DNA from: Oceanicaulis sp. HTCC2633
GTDB lineage: Bacteria > Pseudomonadota > Alphaproteobacteria > Caulobacterales > Maricaulaceae
Assembly (NCBI RefSeq): GCF_000152745.1
Contig: NZ_CH672428.1
Span: forward strand, 1,443,251 to 1,507,250
DNA: 64,000 nt
Reading direction: 5' to 3'
Below are positions 6,579 to 61,851 of this stretch, piece after piece. The translations under genes and the position numbers were made by a program. A model generated the notes under the pieces. The model did not search any database and had not been told where the DNA came from. It was given only the letters and a program-made list of their open reading frames with translations. Position 1 is the stretch's first letter, and every line of letters starts with the position of its first letter.

Positions 6579-9392
6579 ATGTCACGCGCCCGCGCAGGCG
6601 ATCACCGTATCGCCGCGATCCTCGGCCCCACCAATACGGGCAAGACCCATCTCGCGCTCGAGCGGATGATGGCGCACGGGACCGGCGTATTCGGCCTGCC
6701 CCTGAGGCTCCTGGCGCGCGAACTTTACGACAAGGTGGTCAAGGCCAAGGGGCCGGCGTCGGTGGCGCTGATCACGGGCGAGGAGAAGATCGTGCCGCCC
6801 ACGGCGCGCTATTTCCTGTGCACTGTCGAGGCGATGCCGCTGAACATGCGGCCCGCCTTCCTGGCCGTGGACGAGATCCAGCTCGCGGCCGATCCCGAGC
6901 GGGGCCATATCTTCACCGACCGGCTGCTGCACGCCCGCGGCACTCAGGAAACACTGTTCCTGGGCGCGGCGACCATGCGGCCCATCTTGCGCCATCTGAT
7001 ACCCGAGGCCGAGATCGAGGAGCGCGAGCGCTTCTCCACCCTCAGCTATGCCGGCGCCAAGAAGCTGACCAAGCTGCCGCGCCGATCGGCTATTGTCGCC
7101 TTCAGCTCCGAGGATGTGTACTCCATCGCCGAGCTGGTGCGTCGACAACGGGGCGGAGCGGCGGTGGTGATGGGCGCGCTGAGCCCCCGCACCCGCAACG
7201 CCCAGGTCGAGCTCTATCAATCGGGCGAAGTGGACTTCCTGATTGCGACCGACGCCATCGGCATGGGTCTCAATATGGATGTCGATCACGTCGCCTTCGC
7301 GAGCTATTCCAAATTCGACGGCCGCAAGCGCCGCCGGCTGTTCCCCCAGGAGGTCGGCCAGATCGCCGGCCGGGCGGGCCGCTTCCGGTCTGACGGCACC
7401 TTCGGCGAAACCGCCGACGCCCGCCCCCTGGACCCTGACATCATCGAACGGGTCGAGGACCACGAGTTCGAACCCATCAAGAAGCTGACCTGGCGTGAAA
7501 GCCATCTCGATCTCAGCTCGCTCGACAGCCTGCGCCATTCCCTGAACGCGCCCTCTCCCGACCCCGTGCTGGAACGGGTGCGCAGCGCATCGGATGAAGA
7601 TGTGCTCGATCTTGTCTCCCGCGACCCCGACATTCGCGCCCGGGCCGCCGCGCGTGGCGGCACGGCGCGCCTGTGGGATGTGTGCCGGACTCCAGACTTC
7701 CGGAAGGCCAGCCCGGACGATCATGCGCGTCTGATTTCAACGCTCTACATGCATCTGACCAGTCCAAGCGGCTATTTGCCGGACGCCTGGCTGGATGCGC
7801 AGTTGAGCCGCCTGTCCAAGACCGCAGGAGATGTGGACGCCCTGGCCCAGAGACTGGCCTATGTGCGCACCTGGTCTTACGCGGCGCACCGGAAGGACTG
7901 GACAAAAGACCCTGAATATTGGACGAGCCGTACCCGAGAGGTTGAAGATCAGCTCTCCGATGCGCTTCATGAGCGCCTGACCGCCCGCTTCATTGACCGG
8001 CGCACCAGCGCGCTGATGAAGGGGCTGCGAGAGAAAACCGATTTGGAAGCCGGGCTGAACCGCCTGGGCGAGGTCACTGTGGAGGGCCATTTCGTGGGAC
8101 GATTGAACGGGCTGAGCTTTGAAGCCGACGCTGCGGGCGAACCGCTGGCGCGCCGGGCGGTGGCGAACGCCGCAATGAAAGCGGTCCGCCCCGAAGTGAA
8201 CCGCCTGCTCTCCCAGCTCTCCCAGGCTGAAGACAGCGCACTGGCGCTGGGCGAGGACGGCGTGCTGCGCTGGCAGGATGATCCGGTCGGTCGCCTGAAG
8301 GCGGGCAGTGACCCCTTCACCCCCGCCGTCGCTCTGATCGGCGGCGAGCTGGGATCGAGCGAGTTGATCGCCCAGGCTGAAAAGCGCCTCATGACTTTCG
8401 CGGCCAGCCAGGCCGAGACGCGACTGGAACCGCTTCTGGCCCTGCGCAAGGCGCTCAAGGAAGACGGCAAGCTTGATGGCCTGGCTCGCGGCGTCGCCTA
8501 TCAGCTGGTGGAAAGCTTCGGCGCCATGTCCCGCATCAAGCTCGCGGACGAGCTGGCGGCGCTGTCCGTTCCCGAACGCCAGTCCCTGCGCCGCGCGGGC
8601 GTGCGCATTGGCGAACACGCCGTCTTCATGCCCGCCCTGCTGAAACCAGGGGCCGCCCGCCTGCTGTCCATGCTCAAGGCGATTCATGAGGGCGATATCG
8701 AGCGCGCCGTGAACCCGCCGCCGGGCCTGACCAGCATTCCCAATGATCGCCGCCACACCCTGGCTGATTACGCCGCGGCCGGCTTCCAGCCGTGCGGGCC
8801 GCGCGCCGTTCGCCTTGATATGCTCGAGCGTCTGGCGGATCTCATCCGCGAACAGCGCTCTGAGAACAAGGAACGCCGTTTCGAGCCGAATGCGCCGATG
8901 ACCGCGCTTTTGGGCTGCTCGAACGAGGATCTGCGCGAAGTGCTCAAGGCGCTGGGCTATCGCCGCGTTCAGAAGGCGGCCGAGGATCAGCCTGAGCTGT
9001 GGTCCGGCCGGTCGCGCTCGACCCAACGCCCCGCCCAAACGGGTCAGAAACCGCACGCCAAGGGCAAGGGACAAGGCAAGGGCGGCCCGCGCAAGGACGC
9101 CCGGCCCCGCCCGGCTCCGGTGAAGGACAAGCCGATCGATCCGGATTCCCCCTTCGCCGCGCTCGCCGCGCTGGAGCTCGAACAGCCCAAGCCCGCCAAT
9201 CAGAAACGCCGCAAGCCGCGCAAGAAGTCAAAAGCCAAGCCCGCCGAGGCCAAGACGGACGCGTCTCCAGAACAGTCCGCTGCTGAGGCGCCGGAGACGC
9301 CCAAGGCCGAAGCGCCTGCAGACACGGCTCAAACGCCGGCCGACGCCCCTGTCGATTCTGATGCGGCAGGTCCTGAACAAGACCGCTCATGA
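6579..9392 (+). CDS. SUV3-type DEAD/DEAH-like RNA helicase with long basic tail
   Basis: 937 residues. Motif I is GPTNTGKTH (residues 15-23), motif II is DEIQ, and the helicase C domain contains ATDAIGMGLNMDVDHVAF and QIAGRAGR. Together these are the signature of SUV3, the mitochondrial degradosome helicase, whose relatives are common in alphaproteobacteria. An all-helical region follows, and the last 130 residues or so are a low-complexity tail rich in K, A, P and Q that probably binds RNA or is disordered. It overlaps the S4-protein gene by ATGA, suggesting translational coupling and a shared RNA role. A role in RNA decay or ribosome assembly is inferred from the family. Confidence 0.85.
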   Translation: MSRARAGDHRIAAILGPTNTGKTHLALERMMAHGTGVFGLPLRLLARELYDKVVKAKGPASVALITGEEKIVPPTARYFLCTVEAMPLNMRPAFLAVDEIQLAADPERGHIFTDRLLHARGTQETLFLGAATMRPILRHLIPEAEIEERERFSTLSYAGAKKLTKLPRRSAIVAFSSEDVYSIAELVRRQRGGAAVVMGALSPRTRNAQVELYQSGEVDFLIATDAIGMGLNMDVDHVAFASYSKFDGRKRRRLFPQEVGQIAGRAGRFRSDGTFGETADARPLDPDIIERVEDHEFEPIKKLTWRESHLDLSSLDSLRHSLNAPSPDPVLERVRSASDEDVLDLVSRDPDIRARAAARGGTARLWDVCRTPDFRKASPDDHARLISTLYMHLTSPSGYLPDAWLDAQLSRLSKTAGDVDALAQRLAYVRTWSYAAHRKDWTKDPEYWTSRTREVEDQLSDALHERLTARFIDRRTSALMKGLREKTDLEAGLNRLGEVTVEGHFVGRLNGLSFEADAAGEPLARRAVANAAMKAVRPEVNRLLSQLSQAEDSALALGEDGVLRWQDDPVGRLKAGSDPFTPAVALIGGELGSSELIAQAEKRLMTFAASQAETRLEPLLALRKALKEDGKLDGLARGVAYQLVESFGAMSRIKLADELAALSVPERQSLRRAGVRIGEHAVFMPALLKPGAARLLSMLKAIHEGDIERAVNPPPGLTSIPNDRRHTLADYAAAGFQPCGPRAVRLDMLERLADLIREQRSENKERRFEPNAPMTALLGCSNEDLREVLKALGYRRVQKAAEDQPELWSGRSRSTQRPAQTGQKPHAKGKGQGKGGPRKDARPRPAPVKDKPIDPDSPFAALAALELEQPKPANQKRRKPRKKSKAKPAEAKTDASPEQSAAEAPETPKAEAPADTAQTPADAPVDSDAAGPEQDRS

Positions 9393-15963: not shown

Positions 15964-16578
15964 TCACGACAACTGTCGTAAAATCTGGGCCTCGATCTGG
16001 GCGAGCCGTTCCTTGCCGTAGAACATTTCCTCGCCCACGAAGATGGTGGGCATGCCGAAAACGCCCCGCCCGACCGCGTCCTGGGTGTTGGCGATGAGAT
16101 GCGCCTTCACCTCGGTGTCTGAAGTCCGGGCAAGCAGCCTGTCCGCGTCAAAGCCAGCGTCCGAGAAATGCGCCCTGATGACCTCGTCCTGCGTGAAATC
16201 ACGATCCAGTTCCCACATGCCGACGAACCCGGCGTCAAAGAAGGCGCGCAGCTGATCGGGCGCATCGAGCTCCACCGACGCCGCCATGCGCATCAGGGTC
16301 AGGGTGTTCATCGGAAAGTGGGAATTGAACTTGAAGGCGGTCAGATCGTGCGCGGCCACATAGCGGCGGACTTCCAGCATCTCGTAATCAAGCTTGTGCT
16401 TGATGTCGGCGAAGGCGAAGAAGGGCGACTGATTGCCCGTCTCCTTGAAGATTCCGCCCAGAAGGCAGGGGCGATAGCGAAACCGCGCCCCTGTGCGACT
16501 CTCGATCTGCGGCAGGACCTTGTGGACCAGATAGGCGTTCGGGCTGCCCAGATCGGTGATGAAATCGGGCTCGATCAT
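15964..16578 (-). CDS. DsbA-fold oxidoreductase, 2-hydroxychromene-2-carboxylate isomerase type
   Basis: 204 residues. The N-terminus FITDLGSPNAYL matches the F-x-D-x-x-S-P-Y-x-Y motif of the isomerase/glutathione-transferase kappa subgroup, with serine in place of the CxxC of true DsbA. The C-terminal VFGMPTIFVGEEMFYGKERL is the conserved cis-proline region. These enzymes use glutathione. Its start overlaps the HxlR regulator gene by four bases, so it is translated with the regulator. The true substrate is unknown; isomerase is a family name. Confidence 0.8.
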   Translation of the reverse strand: MIEPDFITDLGSPNAYLVHKVLPQIESRTGARFRYRPCLLGGIFKETGNQSPFFAFADIKHKLDYEMLEVRRYVAAHDLTAFKFNSHFPMNTLTLMRMAASVELDAPDQLRAFFDAGFVGMWELDRDFTQDEVIRAHFSDAGFDADRLLARTSDTEVKAHLIANTQDAVGRGVFGMPTIFVGEEMFYGKERLAQIEAQILRQLS

Positions 16579-17093
16579 GATTGCGCGTCCTTGTTGCGGT
16601 TCGCCCGCGCCTTGAGCGCGGCGTAGGATTGTCGGGTGATCTCAGGCGCGGCGTCGGTAGCGCTCATCTCAAGGTCTGACACCTCGACCTCACGACCCGA
16701 CGCCGTCTCAAGACGCACCGGCGCCAGCGCTTCACCGGTCTCGCGCACGCTGAGGCGCACTGGCGAGCGCCCCGGCTCGAAGGTCCAGCGCTCGCCCCAT
16801 TGCATGAGGGCGATCAATGCCGGGGCCAGCTCCCGGCCCTTCTCGGTCAGCTCATACTCAAAGCGCTGCTTGCCCGGCGATGTCGCCTGACGCACCAGCA
16901 CGCCCTGCTCCACAAGCGTGGTCAGACGATCCGTCAGGATTTTCGCCGACACGCCAAGGCGGGTCTTGAAGTCCGAGAACCGGCGCACGCCCGCGATGGC
17001 GTCCCGCAGAACCAGCAAGCTCCAAGGGTCGCCGATCACATCGACGGCTCGGGCGACCGGACACGGATAACGGGAGAGGGAGGTTCGGGTCAT
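16575..17093 (-). CDS. HxlR-family winged-helix transcriptional regulator
   Basis: 172 residues from ATG 17093. The motif CPVARAVDVIGDPWSLLVLRD, then FSDFKTRLGVSAKILTDRL and the wing YELTEKGREL, are diagnostic of HxlR regulators. An ATG at 17111 would abut a palindrome at 17112-17132 and leave no ribosome site, so the shorter start is preferred. The regulator heads a two-gene unit with the DsbA-fold enzyme. HxlR proteins often sense electrophiles or redox state through cysteine; the only N-terminal cysteine visible is in YPCP. Confidence 0.85.
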   Translation of the reverse strand: MTRTSLSRYPCPVARAVDVIGDPWSLLVLRDAIAGVRRFSDFKTRLGVSAKILTDRLTTLVEQGVLVRQATSPGKQRFEYELTEKGRELAPALIALMQWGERWTFEPGRSPVRLSVRETGEALAPVRLETASGREVEVSDLEMSATDAAPEITRQSYAALKARANRNKDAQS

Positions 17094-17111
17094 GCGGCGA
17101 GACTGACCCAT

Positions 17112-17132
17112 TTAGTTTCTTTAAGCAACTAA
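17112..17132 (-). promoter_or_regulatory. 21-bp near-perfect palindrome, probable HxlR operator
   Basis: TTAGTT at 17112-17117 and AACTAA at 17127-17132 frame a core that also pairs (CTT with AAG around a central T). Nine of ten base pairs match. It lies 18 bases upstream of the chosen HxlR start, the position expected for autoregulation, and its AT-rich composition stands out from the flanking DNA. Confidence 0.6.
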
Positions 17133-17175
17133 TTTAGCGCGGCGCTTCAAGAGGGCGGACGCAAGACTTTGCAAT

Positions 17176-17481
17176 TCAATCGGGTTTCCGGCCCACCATG
17201 GAATATAGCGCTTCCAGATAGGCATCGAACGCCTTGCGGCCTTCTGGCGTCAAGCGCGCTGTGGTCAGCGTCTTGCGTGAGACGATCTGCTTGTCGATCG
17301 AGACATAGCCCGCCTCCTCCAGCTTTCTGAGCTGGATGGAGAGATTGCCTTGGGTGGCTTTGAGCGCCTCTTTAAGCGCATTGAAGGTCTCTGCTTCTGA
17401 ATCAGCCAGCAAGGTCATGATCCCCAGCCGCAAGCGGCTGTGGATCACATCATCAAGCTTATCGATATCAAACGAACTCAT
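17176..17481 (-). CDS. small winged-helix DNA-binding regulator (ArsR/MarR-like)
   Basis: 101 residues. IHSRLRLGIMTLL, FNALKEALKATQGNLSIQLRKLEEAGYV and the wing TARLTPEGRKAFDAYL form the 'winged helix DNA-binding domain' of PF13601 type. Last gene of a three-gene minus-strand operon: it follows a membrane protein after 11 bases. Such regulators usually repress the membrane protein they are paired with. No sensing residue was recognised. Confidence 0.75.
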   Translation of the reverse strand: MSSFDIDKLDDVIHSRLRLGIMTLLADSEAETFNALKEALKATQGNLSIQLRKLEEAGYVSIDKQIVSRKTLTTARLTPEGRKAFDAYLEALYSMVGRKPD

Positions 17482-17492
17482 AAGCGATCAGA

Positions 17493-18101
17493 TTAAGGGT
17501 TGGACGCCGAGCGGATCAGGATCCAGCCAGGAAGCGCCATCAGCAGAAGCAGCACCGCCCCCAGAACCAGCATATAGGCCCAGACCATGCTGATCAGCAG
17601 GGCCAGAACCAGCACGCTGAGATACCAGCCGGCAGCGATCACCGCGGTCCAAAGACGGCGTGTGACCAGAGCGGCCAGAAACCAGCACGCGCCCTGAAAC
17701 GCCGCGACCACCATGGGAAAGAGAATCCAGACCTCTGCTCCCAATCCTGTGCGCTGAGCCAGGGAAAAGCCAAGGGCCGCCACCGCATTGGCGATCCCCA
17801 CACCGGCGAAACCGCCCGTCAGCGCGCGGTTGGCGACGCCTTCAGGGGTTTTGGCGCGCACGGACAGGACGATCACGCCGACACAGAACACGCCATTGGA
17901 CGCCAGCGTGCCGATCCAGAAGGTGGCATCGCCCAAGGGCGACCAGCCCAGCAATGCGAAACCGCACGCCAGCGCATAAAGCCCGTAGCACAGACCGGCC
18001 AGCCCATAGAGCTGGCCGGTGGTGCGGAGCTGCACGGGACGCTCTTTCAAGAGCGACCGGATAAAAGTCAGGTCATCACCCAAACCGGTTTCGGTTGTCA
18101 T
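17493..18101 (-). CDS. multipass membrane protein paired with the wHTH regulator
   Basis: 202 residues with about six hydrophobic segments (for example LYGLAGLCYGLYALACGFALL and VLALLISMVWAYMLVLGAVLL). The N-terminal 25 residues are cytosolic and charged. I do not recognise a family with certainty. Its tight spacing to the wHTH gene (11 bases) and to the acyltransferase (18 bases) shows an operon. Confidence 0.6.
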   Translation of the reverse strand: MTTETGLGDDLTFIRSLLKERPVQLRTTGQLYGLAGLCYGLYALACGFALLGWSPLGDATFWIGTLASNGVFCVGVIVLSVRAKTPEGVANRALTGGFAGVGIANAVAALGFSLAQRTGLGAEVWILFPMVVAAFQGACWFLAALVTRRLWTAVIAAGWYLSVLVLALLISMVWAYMLVLGAVLLLLMALPGWILIRSASNP

Positions 18102-18119
18102 GCGGCTCCACCGTTATGC

Positions 18120-19301
18120 TCATTTACGCCGGAAGACCGGCTTGGTGCGTCCGTTCAGGATCCATCCAATGAAGGTCCCACGAACCAGCAAATGATAGCT
18201 GACCAACAGGATCGGCATTGCGATCAGCAGGATCAGAACCAGTTTCACCTCCGCTGGCAGCACCCAGTCAAACATCCAGATCTGGAGCGTGACCACCAAA
18301 GGCAGGTGAACGAGATACACCCAGTACGAGGAGTCGGCCAGATAGCGCCAGACAGGGCTATGATGGTTCATGAGGGCCTGAAACAGACCGATAAAGCCAA
18401 AGATGAAGCCCCACATGGCGACCCCCAGGGCCAGACCGAACAGGGCTTTTTTCATTTCAGTCAGCGCCATCATCAAGTCCGGACTGAATCCGACCAAAAC
18501 AAAACACCCGGCCGTCGCCAGCGCAGCCAGGCCCAGATTGATGAACCAGACACCTTTGAGCTGGTCGAGCACGTGCATCTGACGCTGCATCATCCACCCC
18601 ATCCAGAACGCGAACGGGAAGGTCACCAGCGCAGGCGTATTCGGCAACAATCCCATATCGGGTGAACGCACGCCGAACCAGATCGGGCCGGAGCTGTCTG
18701 AAAACACCAGGGCAGCAACGAGAGCCGCCGGCGCAACCAGCAGGAACGGCGTACCGGCCAGCATGGCGATCAGCTTGTCGACGGCGCGCCCCAGCGCGTC
18801 GGCGCCCGGAATGATCCTGGCCGCCAGAGCCGTCAGGATCGCCGCCGGATAGATCAGCAGCAGCACATACAGAAACCACAAATGGCTCAGCGGCAGGGTG
18901 CGCCAGTTCAGTGGCGGCGCCTCGCCTTCGGGCAGCGGGCCGTACATGGCCGTCATGCCCCAGATGAACAGGGCGATGAAGGCCACGAACATGATCGGCC
19001 AGAGGCTTACAAATGGAAGCCCGATGCGCTTGAGACGGCTCAGAGCGAACCGGCCAGCGCCCATGCGCCGATACATCATGCGGCCGAAGAAGCCCGCCAG
19101 CAGGAAGAACAGGGGCATGCGGAAGGCATGGATCACGAAGAACAGGCCCGACATCAGCGAGGAGCGGTCCGTATCGGCGATCAGCCAGACCCCCGTCGTG
19201 GGGAAGAAGGACAAGGTCGCGTGCAACACGACCCCGAGCAAGAGGGCGCTGGCGCGCAAGGCGTCCAGCGCATGAAGCCGTTCTGGGGAGGAAGTGGTCA
19301 T
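18120..19301 (-). CDS. acyltransferase-3 family membrane protein (OpgC-like)
   Basis: 393 residues with about ten membrane segments. The N-terminal LHALDALRASALLLGVVLHATLSF contains the D-x-x-R-A and H of acyltransferase-3 proteins, and the LAGFFGRMMYRRMG stretch resembles the OpgC/MdoC subgroup that adds succinyl groups to periplasmic glucans. The start has an AAAGGAGA ribosome site. First gene of an operon with a membrane protein and a winged-helix regulator; the upstream region carries palindromes at 19331-19351. The acceptor sugar or lipid is unknown. Confidence 0.8.
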   Translation of the reverse strand: MTTSSPERLHALDALRASALLLGVVLHATLSFFPTTGVWLIADTDRSSLMSGLFFVIHAFRMPLFFLLAGFFGRMMYRRMGAGRFALSRLKRIGLPFVSLWPIMFVAFIALFIWGMTAMYGPLPEGEAPPLNWRTLPLSHLWFLYVLLLIYPAAILTALAARIIPGADALGRAVDKLIAMLAGTPFLLVAPAALVAALVFSDSSGPIWFGVRSPDMGLLPNTPALVTFPFAFWMGWMMQRQMHVLDQLKGVWFINLGLAALATAGCFVLVGFSPDLMMALTEMKKALFGLALGVAMWGFIFGFIGLFQALMNHHSPVWRYLADSSYWVYLVHLPLVVTLQIWMFDWVLPAEVKLVLILLIAMPILLVSYHLLVRGTFIGWILNGRTKPVFRRK

Positions 19302-41946: not shown

Positions 41947-42121
41947 ACGCATGTCGACGCAAGCGGTCTGTATGCCTTGAAATCCTCACCTGGTCGAGCC
42001 CGGTTGTTCAGTTCCCGCTCCGGTTTGGGCTGTTTGCGAATCACGCGGCGCTCTCACATGGACGGCTCGCCCCCATCGCACTAGAAGTGAAGCGGTTTCA
42101 GCCTGACATAAGGTGATGTTG

Positions 42122-42799
42122 ATGGCGCAGATAGAGCCTGACGAATCCCGGTCCGATCACCCCGAGCCCGGTGAAGATCTGGGGCTGACCGACGCGCTTG
42201 CCCGCATCGCCGAGACAGCGCCCGAGGACGGACTGACCCTGGGACAGTTCAGCGACGCCCTGGGCGAGCGCGTATTCGGCGCCTTGCTCTTTGCGCTCGC
42301 CATTCCGGTATGCATGCCCTTCCTTTATGGCGTGCCCCAGATTGTCGCCCTGCCGATGATGGCGATCGCCGCGCAAATGGCGGCGGGACGCGCCCATCCG
42401 TGGATGCCGAAAGGGTTTCGCGATCGCCCGCTGGACAAGCCCAGCCTTGTCCGCATCGCCCGCTGGTCCAAGAAATGGTTCGGCTGGCTGGAAGCTCTGG
42501 CGCGACCGCGTTTCAGCGCCCTCTCCGGCCCCACAGCGGAACGGGTGGTCGGCGCAGTCTTCGTTCTGTTCTGCACCTCGATCCTGATCCCCCTGCCCAC
42601 CACCAACACTGCGCCCGGCATCGGCATCGCCATCGCCTCGATCGGCCTGATCACCCGGGACGGACTTCTGGTGCTCGCTGGTCTCATTCTCGGGATTTTC
42701 TGGATCAGCCTGCTCATCATCGGCTTCACGTTCTTTGGAGCGGCGTTTATCGACCTGCTCAAAGAGTTCATTCTGGGCCTGATCGGTGCTGGCGGCTGA
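42122..42799 (+). CDS. ExoD-family membrane protein
   Basis: 225 residues from ATG 42122, eight bases after AAGG; GTG 42113 and ATG 42116 are alternatives. The sequence LGQFSDALGERVFGALLFALAIP followed by PFLYGVPQIVALPMMAIAAQM, then a cytosolic basic part and two more hydrophobic stretches with LIPLPTTNTAPG, is the ExoD pattern (exopolysaccharide synthesis protein of rhizobia). The biochemical role of ExoD is not established. It lies 50 bases before dsbB and may share its transcript. Confidence 0.85.
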   Translation: MAQIEPDESRSDHPEPGEDLGLTDALARIAETAPEDGLTLGQFSDALGERVFGALLFALAIPVCMPFLYGVPQIVALPMMAIAAQMAAGRAHPWMPKGFRDRPLDKPSLVRIARWSKKWFGWLEALARPRFSALSGPTAERVVGAVFVLFCTSILIPLPTTNTAPGIGIAIASIGLITRDGLLVLAGLILGIFWISLLIIGFTFFGAAFIDLLKEFILGLIGAGG

Positions 42800-42848
42800 G
42801 GCTGCGACGCCCTGTCCCTCGCTCTTCTCGCCACGCTGACCTAGGTTC

Positions 42849-43388
42849 ATGACCATGCCCGTACTTCCCCCCCTTCTGGACCGATGGACCCGTCCCGACA
42901 CCTGGCCGCTCATCGGAGCCCTCGTGTCCGCCAGCCTGTTGCTGGGCGCGTTCGGATTTGAAGTGATCGGGCGCTATGCGCCTTGCCCGCTATGCATCGA
43001 GCAACGCTGGGCGCACGCCTATCTGCTGTTCGCCGGACTGGTCCTGTTCATAGGCCTCAACGTCCTCAGGCCCATGAACGCCCTTGCTGCACGGGCGGCC
43101 ACGCTGGTTATCGCCGCCCTGGCCGGGTTCAGCGCCTGGCGCGCAGGTTACCATGCGGGCGGCGAATACGGATTCTGGCGGCTTGACTGTCTGGCCGCGG
43201 ACACCAGTTCCGTCAGCGTCGAGGATCTACTTTCCTCGCTGAGCACCGCGACCAATGTGGTGCTGTGCGATGAACCGGCCTGGACCCTTCTGGGCGTGTC
43301 CATGGCGGGGTACAACGCTCTCATCAGCGGCCTTCTGATGCTGGTCTCGATCCTCATCGTGTTCCGCGAACCCTATCGGAGCGAGTAA
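42849..43388 (+). CDS. dsbB: disulfide bond formation protein B
   Basis: 179 residues with four membrane helices. The first periplasmic cysteine pair is CPLC in RYAPCPLCIEQRWAH; the second pair (C in RLDCLA and VLCDEP) is about 35 residues apart, which is the DsbB layout for relaying electrons from DsbA to quinone. It overlaps the coq7 start by one base, a fixed neighbourhood in alphaproteobacteria. Confidence 0.9.
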   Translation: MTMPVLPPLLDRWTRPDTWPLIGALVSASLLLGAFGFEVIGRYAPCPLCIEQRWAHAYLLFAGLVLFIGLNVLRPMNALAARAATLVIAALAGFSAWRAGYHAGGEYGFWRLDCLAADTSSVSVEDLLSSLSTATNVVLCDEPAWTLLGVSMAGYNALISGLLMLVSILIVFREPYRSE

Positions 43389-58249: not shown

Positions 58250-58322
58250 AAAAAAGACCCGCCCGGGGGGCCGGAGCGGGTCTGAAGTCCAAAGCCAGGC
58301 CGACGGGAGCAATCTCGTCGGC
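58250..58322 (-). terminator. tandem hairpins ending the R-body operon
   Basis: On the minus strand a first hairpin pairs 58316-58322 with 58299-58305, and a second pairs AGACCCGC (58276-58283 on the other strand) with GCGGGTCT around a GC-rich loop, followed by TTTTTT (A run 58250-58255). The second has the full rho-independent form. They lie 12-80 bases past the last Reb gene. Confidence 0.75.
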
Positions 58323-58333
58323 TTTTTCACGTC

Positions 58334-58624
58334 TTAGGTGGACGAGAAGTTGGCCGAGATCATCCGGGCGACGGCGATGGCGTCGGAGATGGTGTCCACA
58401 GAATAGATCTGCATCACGCCCTGGGTGGAGGCGGCCTGCGCATTGGTGAAGGCGTGCGACTGTGCGTTCACCGCGTTCTCGAACATCAGGCCGTGCGAGT
58501 GCGCCAGCGCCTGATAGACGTTGCCCATGGCCATGGCCGGGGCTTCGCCGACCACCTTGACGTTGGACTGGGTCACGGCGTCGGTGACCTGGGAATTCAC
58601 TTGCTCGTTAGCTTGCGTCGTCAT
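58334..58624 (-). CDS. RebB-family R-body structural protein
   Basis: 96 residues. VNSQVTDAVTQSNVKVVGEA, PAMAMGNVYQALAHSHG, NAVNAQSHAF, NAQAASTQGVMQIYSVDT are the conserved blocks of RebB ('killing trait' family, PF11747). RebB-type subunits polymerise into R-bodies, long protein ribbons that unroll at low pH, known from Caedibacter, Azorhizobium and Pseudomonas. It is the last gene of a six-gene minus-strand operon (61132 to 58334). A GGACAG ribosome site precedes the start. Confidence 0.9.
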   Translation of the reverse strand: MTTQANEQVNSQVTDAVTQSNVKVVGEAPAMAMGNVYQALAHSHGLMFENAVNAQSHAFTNAQAASTQGVMQIYSVDTISDAIAVARMISANFSST

Positions 58625-58725
58625 GTTCTGTCCTCATTGGTTTTCGTGGTGAAGGGCAGACCCGAGGCCCTGTGAGCCGGATCCGCCGGGTTTTCTGGGG
58701 CGCTGACGCCTTCAGAAACTTGGGA

Positions 58726-58980
58726 TCAGTCCTGCTGGACGTTGACCGACGGGCCGCCGATCGGATTCCAGATGCTTTCCGCGCTGCGGCCCAGCGTCAG
58801 GATGTAGGCGACGCAGGTCGCCGTGGTGGCCGCTGCGGTCTGGTTGTTGAGAAGCTGGGACTGGACATTGCCTTCAAACAGCTTGGCCAGAGAGCTGGCG
58901 CTGGCGTTGGTGGCGATGTTCTCATTGCTGACAACCGACAGCTCGTCGATGGTCAGGGTAATCTGCTTGTCGTCACTCAT
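58726..58980 (-). CDS. small hypothetical protein of the R-body operon
   Basis: 84 residues with AAAGGAGA before ATG 58980. The mix of short polar residues and SLAKLFEGNVQSQLLNNQTAAATTATCVAYILTLG recalls Reb proteins in composition (A, T, N, Q rich, one helix pair) but the RebB blocks are not present. It may be a divergent Reb subunit or an assembly factor. Spacing to its neighbours is short: 12 bases after the proline-rich protein gene, 101 bases before rebB. Confidence 0.55.
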   Translation of the reverse strand: MSDDKQITLTIDELSVVSNENIATNASASSLAKLFEGNVQSQLLNNQTAAATTATCVAYILTLGRSAESIWNPIGGPSVNVQQD

Positions 58981-58992
58981 GGTGGGTCTCCT

Positions 58993-59391
58993 TTAGCGTT
59001 GGAAGGCGTTCAGTTTCCGGGCGATGCGGGCCTGGATCATCGCGGTGCGACGGGCGATGGCGGCGGACTGCTCCTGCTGGCGGGCCTGGGTCGCCCGTTC
59101 GAGCTGCTGGCGGATCTCCGCCTCGTTCTGAGACGTTGACGGCCTTGCTCCGCCCGGCCCCGACTGCGCCCCCAGACCGGGAATGGGCGGCAGGTCGATC
59201 GGCGTGTCCGGTATGGGCGTTTGCGGAATGGAGGGATCCGGGATCGACGGGTCGGGTATGGGCGGGTCCGGGATCGGAGGACTGGGCACGTCCGCCTCCG
59301 CCTGCATCTGCGCCCAGATCTGGTTCAGCACCTCGTTGAGCGGGGCGATCTGGCGGGCGACTTCCCGGGCGATCCTGTCTTCAAGGGTCAT
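58993..59391 (-). CDS. R-body operon protein with proline-rich pentapeptide repeats
   Basis: 132 residues. An N-terminal helix (IAREVARQIAPLNEVLNQIWAQM) is followed by about six repeats of the form I-P-D-[PT]-[SPI] between residues 38 and 70, then a helical C-terminal part rich in Q, R and A (QQLERATQARQQEQSAAIARR). The N- and C-terminal helices could be coiled coils and the repeats a stiff linker. I know no family. GGAGG precedes ATG. Its place in the operon suggests a role in assembly or tethering of R-bodies. Confidence 0.6.
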   Translation of the reverse strand: MTLEDRIAREVARQIAPLNEVLNQIWAQMQAEADVPSPPIPDPPIPDPSIPDPSIPQTPIPDTPIDLPPIPGLGAQSGPGGARPSTSQNEAEIRQQLERATQARQQEQSAAIARRTAMIQARIARKLNAFQR

Positions 59392-59421
59392 GTCTGCCTC
59401 CTGCCTGGCCGCACACCGGCG

Positions 59422-60300
59422 CTAGGCGTCTTCCGGTTCCAGGAAGGCGCCGACCATGCCTGCGGCGCCGCGGCACAAACCGCCCAGCGTGGACAGTCCG
59501 ATGCCCCAGTACTTCATGGCGTTATTGTTATCGTGCAGGCCTTTGGCCCCGAGGATCCCGCCCCCCAGAGTGGCCAGCGCCCCGACAATCTGAAGCCCGC
59601 CGATGATCCAGGTCTTGCCCAGTTCGGTCACCCGCAACGCCTCCCCGACCGAAAGCCGGGTCGGAGCGGCGACCATCAGGTTCGCCGCGATCGCCGCCAC
59701 AAGATCCGAAGTCTCGCCTTCAAGCCGCTGCATCAGGTCCGCGATTTCCGAGTTGGATAATGTGCTGAACGCCACCGTGCTGGACTGGGTCGTGTACTCA
59801 TAATCGCCGAGCACATTGGCCTGCAGCGTCATCGTCGTGGACAGGATGTCCTGCGTCGGCGGCATGATCTGCAGGATGCCGTTGTGATCCCCCTGGGAGA
59901 TGTCGCTCACCGTGGCGTAGGGGGCGATCGTCAGGATCAGGGTCACCTGCCCCGCTGTTGCGGTCTGGGCGCAGCTGATCAGCACCAGGCCGCGCTCATT
60001 GGCGCCGCCTTCAATCAGAAGGCTGGCATAGCTTGACAGATCCGGGACGAAGACCGGCCGCATCAGCGGACTCATCTGGCAGCCGGCCAGCGTGATCTGA
60101 ACCACGCCATTGCCATCGCTCTCGGCCGTCCTCGCTCCATAGTGAAGGCGCGGCGCGCCCTGCGCGGTATAGCTCTCCCCCACGGCCTGGACATAGGCCA
60201 GCGATGAGGCCTCAGCGATCGTCTTCAGCCCCGGCGCAAACACCGGCTTGGCGAAGGTCGACCCCGAGGTGGTCAGCGAATTCTGGGCAGTGCACGACAT
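59422..60300 (-). CDS. hypothetical protein of the R-body operon with C-terminal membrane helices
   Basis: 292 residues from ATG 60300, preceded by GGAAAGGGAA; the longer frame upstream is arginine-rich and non-coding. The first 200 residues are beta-rich, without signal peptide. The end has two hydrophobic helices (WIIGGLQIVGALATLGGGILG and YWGIGLSTLGGLCRGAAGMVGAFL). The hydrophobic, glycine-rich hairpin resembles the membrane-active ends of some toxins, which is only a suggestion. No family recognised. It lies 30 bases before the proline-repeat gene. Confidence 0.55.
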   Translation of the reverse strand: MSCTAQNSLTTSGSTFAKPVFAPGLKTIAEASSLAYVQAVGESYTAQGAPRLHYGARTAESDGNGVVQITLAGCQMSPLMRPVFVPDLSSYASLLIEGGANERGLVLISCAQTATAGQVTLILTIAPYATVSDISQGDHNGILQIMPPTQDILSTTMTLQANVLGDYEYTTQSSTVAFSTLSNSEIADLMQRLEGETSDLVAAIAANLMVAAPTRLSVGEALRVTELGKTWIIGGLQIVGALATLGGGILGAKGLHDNNNAMKYWGIGLSTLGGLCRGAAGMVGAFLEPEDA

Positions 60301-60380
60301 GGGGGTTCCCTTTCCGGATGGGTTGGATCGGTTCTGGGCGAGGCCGCGCGCGGGCGTCCTGCGACGGGGCGGGGCGCGTC

Positions 60381-60890
60381 TCATCCCGAAAAGTCGGTCT
60401 TGATGGTGCTGGCGGTGCTGGTCACCGAGCCTGAGAAGGTGATCAGCGAGCTTTGCCAGGTCGCCAGCTCCTGCAGCGCCTTCTTGCCGGTGTCCTGCGT
60501 GGCCGGATCGAGCAGCAGCGCCATGGCCTGACCGGAAGCGGCGAGCACCAGTTGCTCGGAGCCCTGCATGTAGCCGCGCAGATCCTCGAGCATCATGACC
60601 GCCGCCTGATCGGCGAGCGGGCTTTCCAGTGCGCCCAGCACTTCGCCCGTCTGCGCCGTGAGCTGCGCCTGATTGAAGCTCGCCGCCTTCTGAATATCGG
60701 TTGTGGCGGTTGGCAGACTAGCGCTCTCCAGAGCGTCCCTTTCGGCGGAGACCGCATCGTCCGCGAGCGTCTGGCCATCGCGGGCAGCGTCCTTCAGGGC
60801 GGCGTCTTCAGCCGCCTGAGCCGCTGAGGGACCGGGTTTGTCCGCCTTCAACCGGGACCGCGGCGTTCGGGGAGTGGGTTGTCTGGCCAT
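60381..60890 (-). CDS. hypothetical helical protein of the R-body operon
   Basis: 169 residues. A basic N-terminus (RQPTPRTPRSRLKADKPG) is followed by alpha-helical, A, Q and D rich sequence (FNQAQLTAQTGEVLGALESPLAD, YMQGSEQLVLAASGQAMALLLD). It ends with a short S/T-rich tail. CCGGAGA lies before the start. The alanine-rich, small-residue character is shared with the Reb proteins, but the RebB blocks are absent. It begins 17 bases after the first Reb gene. Confidence 0.55.
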   Translation of the reverse strand: MARQPTPRTPRSRLKADKPGPSAAQAAEDAALKDAARDGQTLADDAVSAERDALESASLPTATTDIQKAASFNQAQLTAQTGEVLGALESPLADQAAVMMLEDLRGYMQGSEQLVLAASGQAMALLLDPATQDTGKKALQELATWQSSLITFSGSVTSTASTIKTDFSG

Positions 60891-60907
60891 GTCATGCGTC
60901 TCCGGGC

Positions 60908-61132
60908 CTAGCCGCCGTTAATCTTGGCGATCGCCTGAGCGACGATCGACGGATTGAGCTGATTGAGGTTCTGCTGGTTGGAGACCGAGTTCGACAGCGC
61001 CAGGCCATTGGCGTTCGCCAGACTCTGATACAGCGCGCCAATCGCGACAGCTGGCGCTTCGGCCAACACGCCGACCGCGGTTTGCGACACCGCATCGGTG
61101 ATTTTCCCGTTGACCTCTTCGTTCGTCGCCAT
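60908..61132 (-). CDS. second RebB-family protein, first gene of the operon
   Basis: 74 residues with a strong AGGAGG ribosome site before ATG 61132. VNGKITDAVSQTAVGVLAEAPAVAIGALYQSLANANGLALSNSVSNQ, cited here as blocks ITDAVSQ, EAPAVAIGALYQSLA and NANGLALSNSV, lines up with the RebB at 58334. It lacks the C-terminal AQAASTQGV-IYSVDT block, so it is a shorter variant. It is the likely promoter-proximal gene. Confidence 0.82.
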   Translation of the reverse strand: MATNEEVNGKITDAVSQTAVGVLAEAPAVAIGALYQSLANANGLALSNSVSNQQNLNQLNPSIVAQAIAKINGG

Positions 61133-61178
61133 GTTTCGCCTCCTGGGTACCAGTTAACTAAAAACAACCAGCACGAGA

Positions 61179-61192
61179 GTCGCCATGGCGAC
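61179..61192. promoter_or_regulatory. 14-bp perfect palindrome between the Reb operon and its divergent regulator
   Basis: GTCGCCATGGCGAC reads the same on both strands. It lies 47 bases upstream of the first Reb gene start and about 100 bases before the HTH gene start. It stands in the only region where the operon promoter can be, so it is a good operator candidate. Confidence 0.5.
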
Positions 61193-61293
61193 AATGTCCC
61201 TTGCGTTGCAGATTGACTTCGCGCTTAAATTGAAGCCGAACAAAGATGGAACCGCACTCTCGCGGAGAGCTTCAAGCCCAGAGGAGAGACAGG

Positions 61294-61806
61294 GTGACTT
61301 CTTACTGCCTTCCAGACAGCCAGGGCGACACCTTGGCCAATCCAATAGAAACCACTGATAAACCATACACATTGATAGCGCCCCGATTGAGCGCGACTCA
61401 GGACCCCACCCTGATCCAGTTCATCGAGACGCATTTTGACGCGCTTTGCCCGCACCTGAACTGGTTCACCGTAGAGTTGTTTTTTCAATGTGGCGTCGCC
61501 CGCGGCCTGGCCTATCTTGATCGGCACGCTTCGCGCCGGATCAGTACGCAGAAGATCCTTGAAGACATTCCCGGATCTGCGCGTTTCACCTCGGTCGTCA
61601 TGAACAACGCCGGTCAGACCGGATATGTGGAGATCCAGTCAAAGTCAGGATTTATCGAAAACATTCGACGATTTATCGCCGTCGAGGCGCTCAGCGCCGG
61701 CGCCTCGACGGCCGAGGTCGCCCATTTGTGCGGGATCAGCCTGCGCACGGTTCAGAGGTTGCAAAGGGTCAGCGCTCAGTCGCGCAGCCCTGAACCCGCA
61801 CCCTGA
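61294..61806 (+). CDS. HTH transcriptional regulator divergent from the R-body operon
   Basis: 170 residues from GTG 61294, chosen because GAGGAG lies seven bases upstream; an ATG at 61246 would add 16 residues with no ribosome site. The first 120 residues (FIETHFDALCPHLNWFTVELFF, GLAYLDRHASRRISTQKIL) match no family I know. The C-terminal ALSAGASTAEVAHLCGISLRTVQRLQR is a helix-turn-helix, possibly of the resolvase/Xre-like type. It is a plausible regulator of Reb expression, as RebR is in Azorhizobium, but homology to RebR is not shown. Confidence 0.7.
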   Translation: MTSYCLPDSQGDTLANPIETTDKPYTLIAPRLSATQDPTLIQFIETHFDALCPHLNWFTVELFFQCGVARGLAYLDRHASRRISTQKILEDIPGSARFTSVVMNNAGQTGYVEIQSKSGFIENIRRFIAVEALSAGASTAEVAHLCGISLRTVQRLQRVSAQSRSPEPAP

Positions 61807-61823
61807 ACACATCCAGACACGAC

Positions 61824-61851
61824 AACGCCGACGCCTTCCGGCGCCGGCGTT
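61824..61851. terminator. terminator-like hairpin between the HTH gene and the dipeptidase
   Basis: A 12-bp stem with one mismatch pairs 61824-61835 with 61840-61851 around TTCC. It lies between converging genes, 17 bases after the regulator's stop and 25 bases past the dipeptidase's stop. There is no clear T run. Confidence 0.55.

Follow-up and report, generated by a model that had tools for sequence, protein, structure and literature searches.

R-bodies are spring-like protein ribbons best known from protist-killing bacteria. Here we describe a reb locus of Oceanicaulis sp. HTCC2633, a run of six open reading frames (ORFs) on the minus strand at 58334-61132 of a 64,000-nucleotide stretch of contig NZ_CH672428.1 (the window), and compare it with the reb systems described in other bacteria, for which excerpts of the cited papers are used throughout. 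In the plant symbiont Azorhizobium caulinodans, R-body formation requires rebAZC3, rebAZC4 and one of rebAZC1/2; AZC_3784 is also essential, since its deletion abolishes R-bodies, and AZC_3785 and AZC_3787 are dispensable (excerpt of PMC5527310). Acid-triggered extension of the R-body was described for Caedibacter, and in the Pseudomonas aeruginosa PA14 reb cluster the accessory genes PA14_27650, 27660 and 27675 are given as not conserved in other pseudomonads (excerpt of PMC8322103). The toxin set free by R-bodies was still called unknown in 2026 (excerpt of PMC13430693). Oceanicaulis is a marine genus found with algae (excerpt of PMC6079179).

The Oceanicaulis locus is very probably an R-body (Reb) operon of the Azorhizobium type. 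We propose that one of its genes, HP292, adds a payload or recognition step to this operon, and we give the explanation as a whole a probability of roughly 0.42.

Operon structure and Reb types

The six ORFs are read in the order RebB1 (60908-61132), HP169 (60381-60890), HP292 (59422-60300), HP132 (58993-59391), HP84 (58726-58980) and RebB2 (58334-58624), all on the minus strand. RebB1, a short protein of 74 aa, and RebB2, of 96 aa, matched the PF11747 family with 67.6 bits (E=9.9e-19) and 97.4 bits (E=5.1e-28), respectively, for a cut-off of 24, and no other protein of the genome matched it at E<=0.001. Together with a probable half-Reb (HP84, see below), two full Rebs are thus packed within 2.8 kb on a single strand. 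Purine-rich ribosome sites, read by eye, precede all six starts if HP292 (292 aa) begins at 60300. The HP292 frame opens at an ATG at 60384 (320 aa form) without a ribosome site, and the start at 60300 was favoured because of the ribosome site found there. The same six genes occur in the same order and at the same place, with all frames open and together with a divergent gene, REG, in two other Oceanicaulis genomes (G007 and G014), so that the arrangement is not due to chance.

An earlier note, made from the letters of the DNA and a list of its ORFs, had described 58250-61851 as a six-gene, one-strand R-body operon with RebB-family genes at both ends. All six ORFs lie on the minus strand where it placed them, both ends are RebB-family genes, the synteny it proposed to look for was found in the two relatives, and nothing pointed to the middle genes belonging to another well-known system outside Reb; the operon reading is well supported, and the range also takes in REG (61246-61806, plus strand). 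The note had further stated that the four middle genes match no family. None of HP169, HP292, HP132 and HP84 indeed reached any Pfam, NCBIfam or PADLOC cut-off. Nevertheless, not all four can be called unrecognised, because HP169 has a studied homologue and HP84 is probably Reb-related; HP132 is a possible counterpart of AZC_3785, and HP292 is the only middle gene wholly unplaced.

Two trees were used to assign the Reb types, a later one of 30 chosen Reb sequences and an earlier one of 33. In the 30-sequence tree, RebB1 grouped with AZC_reb1/reb3 and the first Rebs of two further loci, L075 (from a second genome of the Azorhizobium genus) and L028 (from an uncultured alphaproteobacterium), with support 91/88. 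The partners of RebB2 were AZC_reb2/reb4, the final Reb of L075 and two L028 Rebs (96/95). In the 33-sequence tree, RebB1 grouped with a short Caedibacter Reb, whose length suggests RebD, with Rebs following sigma factors and with the Azospirillum HP1.4-type row (91/93). We refer to RebB1 as RebD-type and to RebB2 as RebP-type. Reb sequences are short and several branches are long, and 1% and 0% of the bootstrap trees separate the RebD-type rows from all others by a single branch; the RebD class is therefore not shown as one clade. Both Rebs also matched PHROG 32040 (a family of unknown function), which suggests that Reb-like proteins exist in phage genomes; a scan of IMG/VR with RebB2 gave no confirmed match.

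HP169, homologue of the AZC_3784-position protein

The genome taken as A. caulinodans ORS571 (G553) carries an operon in which three reb genes are followed by genes X and Y, a fourth reb, gene Z and a Crp-type regulator, matching the description of AZC_3781-3788; gene X (L074:4787-5155) was assigned to AZC_3784 by its position. Sequence comparison shows HP169 to be homologous to the product of this gene. BLASTP aligned the two over 74 aa with 42% identity (E=4e-15). A profile built from four Oceanicaulis HP169 copies recovered the Azorhizobium protein (E=4.5e-16) and the reverse, AZC_3784-type profile recovered HP169 (E=1.1e-14). The profile score was reached by none of 500 shuffles, and hhalign gave 98%. 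By analogy with the deletion phenotype in Azorhizobium, HP169 is likely an R-body assembly factor. The link is already in print in outline: AZC_3784 homologues were reported in Oceanicaulis sp. HTCC2633 and O. alexandrii DSM 11625, with the gene unspecified in the excerpt (PMC5527310). Its interest is that a homologue of a non-Reb gene whose deletion abolishes R-body formation is placed in a marine genus.

AZC_3784-type genes are also present in L075 and L028. In L075 the gene is followed by an AZC_3785-like gene, 35% identical to AZC_3785, and in L028 by a weakly AZC_3785-like gene. The L028 contig (3.6 kb, from a Kiruna metagenome-assembled genome) carries at 38-2064 a short Reb, the AZC_3784-type gene, the weakly AZC_3785-like gene and three Rebs; HP292 and HP84 had no match on it. 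A scan of genome contigs with HP169 retained 3 loci from 154 pattern matches, and was probably not exhaustive as it missed Azorhizobium. In the class sample, HP169 matched 2 of 385 genomes, both Reb-bearing. No plasmid match at E<=1 and no confirmed IMG/VR match were obtained with this protein.

HP132 and HP84

HP132 is composed of an N-terminal helix-like part, a proline-rich repeat and a basic C-terminal part. Like AZC_3785, it is placed after the AZC_3784-type gene and before the last Reb, and its layout is also similar. A three-sequence AZC_3785-type profile matched HP132 with E 0.0066 and its orthologues with 8e-4 and 0.031, scores reached by 0 of 500 shuffles in each case. When the L028 protein was left out, the HP132 score with the two-sequence profile was reached by 329 of 500 shuffles, and the reverse profile direction was not significant. 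HP132 may, on this weak resemblance, be the counterpart of the dispensable AZC_3785.

HP84 probably represents a divergent half-Reb, as suggested by its match to the C-terminal half of the RebB-core hidden Markov model, which scored 15.0-16.9 bits in three orthologues and in each case exceeded all 300 shuffles. In a RebB-core search among 2281 ORFs, the G007 copy was found with E=7e-4 and the G014 copy above 1e-3; hhalign gave only 13.5% for HP84 against Reb. Iterating the HP84 search brought in the entire Reb family, possibly by drift, and the non-iterated RebB-core profile with shuffles was used instead. No confirmed IMG/VR match was obtained with HP84.

Divergence of HP292

To compare rates of change along the window, 68 non-overlapping ORFs (ten chosen manually and the others by length) were aligned with the syntenic DNA of G007 and G014. 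Matches over half the length were obtained for 54 and 60 ORFs, leaving out 14 and 8, respectively. HP292 was the least conserved of the 54 in G007, with 34% identity (median 79%), and the second-least of the 60 in G014, with 35% (median 84%), where HP132 was lowest. The remaining operon products were more conserved in both relatives: RebB2 99% and 89%, RebB1 92% and 88%, HP169 82% and 75%, HP84 88% and 51% in G007 and G014, respectively. Ratios of nonsynonymous to synonymous differences (pN/pS) were 0.02-0.23 for the Rebs, 0.24-0.51 for HP169, 0.24-0.73 for HP84, 0.58-0.86 for HP132 and 0.75-0.88 for HP292 (a rough value, the synonymous divergence, dS, being >1). How dS varies along the operon is uninterpretable, since REG and the neighbouring dipeptidase gene also have high values. 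GC content and third-position GC of HP292 are ordinary, and give no sign of a recent foreign origin. Among the matches listed from the open-access literature, we recognised no report of within-genus divergence of a reb accessory gene.

The earlier note had drawn attention to two C-terminal membrane helices in one accessory protein, which could link ribbon unrolling to membrane damage. By hydropathy (19-residue window, threshold 1.6 or more), HP292 of the window has one segment (232-250), the G014 protein two, at 98-117 and, C-terminally, at 227-245, and the G007 protein none (maximum 1.56). The AlphaFold models showed, with low confidence, two long C-terminal helices in the window protein (226-257 and 260-285) and a single one in the G007 protein. 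The orthologues do not share the helix pair, which weakens the proposed link to membrane damage, and divergence is a better reason than helices to look at HP292. The same low-confidence models suggest a strand-rich region near 36-177 followed by helices.

Of 136 family genomes, 3 contain HP292, and each of these has the operon; the protein likewise gave 3 matches among 61 relatives. HP84 was found in 3 of the 30 genomes searched, again all with the six-gene operon. Both genes are thus confined, within these samples, to three Oceanicaulis genomes. HP292 had no match at the Azorhizobium, L028 or G005 loci (the latter a fourth Oceanicaulis genome, see below), no plasmid match at E<=0.01 and no sequence match in the PDB at E<=1; Foldseek returned 0 PDB matches at E<=0.001 for the model of the window protein.

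A possible payload or accessory role for HP292

HP292 is a candidate for the target-facing part of the system because it diverges far faster than its neighbours and lies outside the conserved core. Both its lineage pattern and its divergence fit a payload or target-facing role, and a payload or recognition step is tentatively proposed here, at somewhat less than even odds. We suggest the following roles. RebB2 (RebP-type) and RebB1 (RebD-type) would be the ribbon proteins and HP169 the assembly factor, no ribbon being formed without it. HP132 would be a rod-like accessory, maybe dispensable for assembly. HP84 may stand in for the third Reb, because Oceanicaulis has two full Rebs and Azorhizobium needs three. 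HP292, the part most likely to meet the target, either as a payload or as a recognition protein, would be released or carried as the ribbon extends after a grazer or a host takes the cell up. The sequences themselves show Reb membership, the homology of HP169 to the AZC_3784-position protein, a gene order shared with Azorhizobium and the divergence of HP292; ribbon formation and acid-triggered extension in Oceanicaulis, as well as the roles of HP84, HP132 and HP292, are inferred.

The strongest alternative keeps the same R-body operon and sees in HP292 a weakly constrained accessory with a structural, anchoring or chaperone-like function, which diverges because sequence change is tolerated; this too is a serious candidate, short of an even chance. 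Several observations speak for it or weigh against a payload or recognition step. HP132 likewise diverges fast (61% in G007 and 33% in G014), and so does AZC_3785, 35% identical within its genus. In four reb loci of another genus, accessory ORFs at 32-36% identity, some of which may not be genes, lie near Rebs of 43-93% (for example a 146-aa ORF at 36% and 46%). The pN/pS of HP292 is below 1 in all three pairs, and the 52 columns that are invariant in the three-sequence alignment imply that the protein retains a fold. HP292 yielded no toxin fold, catalytic motif or secretion signal, and the mean predicted local distance difference test scores of 44.8 (window) and 41.6 (G007) make its models poor. 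Since only three HP292 sequences were compared, with 31-36% identity and dS >1, selection is indistinguishable from relaxed constraint or replacement by an old allele. A further point, which concerns the Azorhizobium affiliation, is the divergent regulator: REG is a helix-turn-helix (HTH) protein, whereas the gene at the RebR position in Azorhizobium matches HTH_Crp_2 and cNMP_binding. On the other side, HP292 (34%) changes much more than the next operon product, HP132 (61%), in the G007 comparison. The lack of an HP292 match at the Azorhizobium, L028 and G005 loci also argues against a structural part; in Azorhizobium, ribbon formation is independent of HP292 because its locus holds no match.

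Fast-changing accessory genes may be usual in reb operons, which would fit a general payload slot and weak constraint equally. In its most specific form, the payload or recognition proposal makes HP292 a hypervariable, lineage-specific protein set in a conserved four-gene core and diverging in an arms race, its opponents being grazing protists or host algae. If this is true, reb operons would share the core but differ in their payload genes, which would be unrelated to one another. This form is rather unlikely, and was weighed slightly lower because of the fast-changing accessory ORFs in the reb loci of the other genus.

Other affiliations of the locus

A divergent Group 2 (P. aeruginosa PA14-type) cluster, with HP169 as RapA, is improbable. 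The order is broadly similar (short RebD-type gene, accessory protein, other genes, RebP-type last), L033_249 gave a single-sequence match to one HP169 orthologue (E=5.6e-5), and the L028 AZC_3785-type protein outscored all 300 shuffles with an HP2.2-like profile (9.1 vs 8.8 bits). However, the identity of HP169 with RapA, suggested by position and by this one weak match, was dropped as unsupported after shuffles: the score of a RapA-like profile, built from proteins at the RapA position and not from PA14 RapA itself, was reached by 26, 4, 40, 95 and 180 of 300 shuffles for five HP169 copies, and hhalign gave 0.4-1.7%. The score of HP132 against the HP2.2-like profile was similarly reached by 25, 37 and 103 of 300 shuffles. 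The Azorhizobium match of HP169 is far stronger, and neither a sigma factor nor a Crp-type regulator was present among the genes scanned within the operon and beside it.

A reb remnant, decaying or silent and making ribbons no more, to which the two full Rebs (for three needed in Azorhizobium) and the presence of Reb genes in only 4 of 15 Oceanicaulis genomes could point, is most improbable in view of the six intact frames with ribosome sites, all open in G007 and G014 as well, the low pN/pS of RebB1 and RebB2 and the conserved control region.

Group 1 identity, attractive from gene number and sizes, was also considered. Profiles of HP1.1 and HP1.2, built from 3 and 4 loci, were not consistently above shuffles for the four middle proteins; for HP169 against HP1.2 there was a weak hint (P=0.004 to 0.05, hhalign 8.6%).

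Control elements and genomic site

RebB1 and REG are separated by an intergenic control region (61133-61245) that includes a long near-identical stretch in the three aligned Oceanicaulis genomes. It contains a 14-base palindrome, GTCGCCATGGCGAC (61179-61192), a possible regulator site in which one base differs in G007 and G014. The palindrome has the GTNNC-N4-GNNAC layout of the Azorhizobium RebR site, with different inner letters; its pattern was absent from the part of the AZC sequence that was examined, in which the promoter may be missing. REG (true start uncertain) is a likely regulator with a C-terminal HTH, 80% identical in G007 and 83% in G014 at the same place. It matched HTH_23 with 24.7 bits (cut-off 24.6) and gave weak HTH matches only, with no Crp/Fnr or cNMP-binding match. 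After RebB2, a terminator-like hairpin with a T run (58256-58275, minus strand) is a consensus match only; 7 terminator-like sites were found across the region, compared to 2.5 expected from shuffles.

Reb genes were detected in 11 of 137 family genomes, in 14 of 385 genomes of the class sample and in 6 of 391 genomes of the family of G417, taken to hold Azorhizobium. The six-gene operon lies between an M19 dipeptidase gene and a YjbR gene adjoining thiC. In the Reb-less Oceanicaulis genome G009, the dipeptidase, a short YjbR match and thiC lie within about 4.3 kb; the dipeptidase was not found in the stretches taken from the other ten Reb-less genomes, those of G013 and G004 being only about 3 kb. 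G005 carries a three-gene RebB-HP169-RebB version (L019:6984-7963) between YjbR and thiC, that is, on the other side of YjbR from the operon of the window, suggesting an independent insertion or a local rearrangement near thiC.

Two other places in the window were noted. A 271-aa ORF without Pfam match (42098-42913, minus strand) is 50-53% identical in the two relatives, and is thus another fast-changing ORF unless it is a wrong ORF choice. At 16575-19301, an HxlR-type regulator, a winged-helix regulator, an unknown gene and an acyltransferase had no match in the syntenic stretches taken from G007 and G014.

Comparison with known reb systems

The Group 1 synteny HP1.1-HP1.4 (Raymann 2013, excerpt of PMC3583457) resembles the Oceanicaulis operon in having four accessory proteins, two of them distant Reb relatives, and differs from it in gene order and sizes. 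The PA14 cluster (rcgA-fecI2-rebD-rapA-...-rebP1P2; excerpt of PMC8322103) shares the succession of a RebD-type gene, accessory proteins and RebP-type genes. In contrast, HP169 has no demonstrable homology to the proteins at the RapA position, a sigma factor is lacking among the Oceanicaulis genes scanned and the regulator differs.

Within the Azorhizobium operon, the protein at the AZC_3787 position (L074:5981-7807) and its L075 relative (7125-9083), 53% identical, share a conserved HAE ... PCYMC pair that we take to be reminiscent of zinc deaminases. Neither had a family match, and the HP292 profile does not match AZC_3787. The AZC_3787-type protein could be the payload of the Azorhizobium operon.

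The Azorhizobium operon (AZC_3781-AZC_3788; excerpt of PMC5527310) differs from that of Oceanicaulis in having four full Rebs instead of two and in carrying a gene of the size of AZC_3787, for which Oceanicaulis has none, whereas HP292 and HP84 are inserted in Oceanicaulis. Its RebD-type and RebP-type Rebs group with those of Oceanicaulis, and the core order reb3-AZC_3784-AZC_3785-reb4 is that of RebB1-HP169-HP132-RebB2. These core types, probably including that of AZC_3785, recur together in Oceanicaulis, in the two Azorhizobium-genus genomes and in L028. The comparison thereby separates a shared building core (RebD-type, AZC_3784-type, probably AZC_3785-type and RebP-type) from lineage-specific additions.

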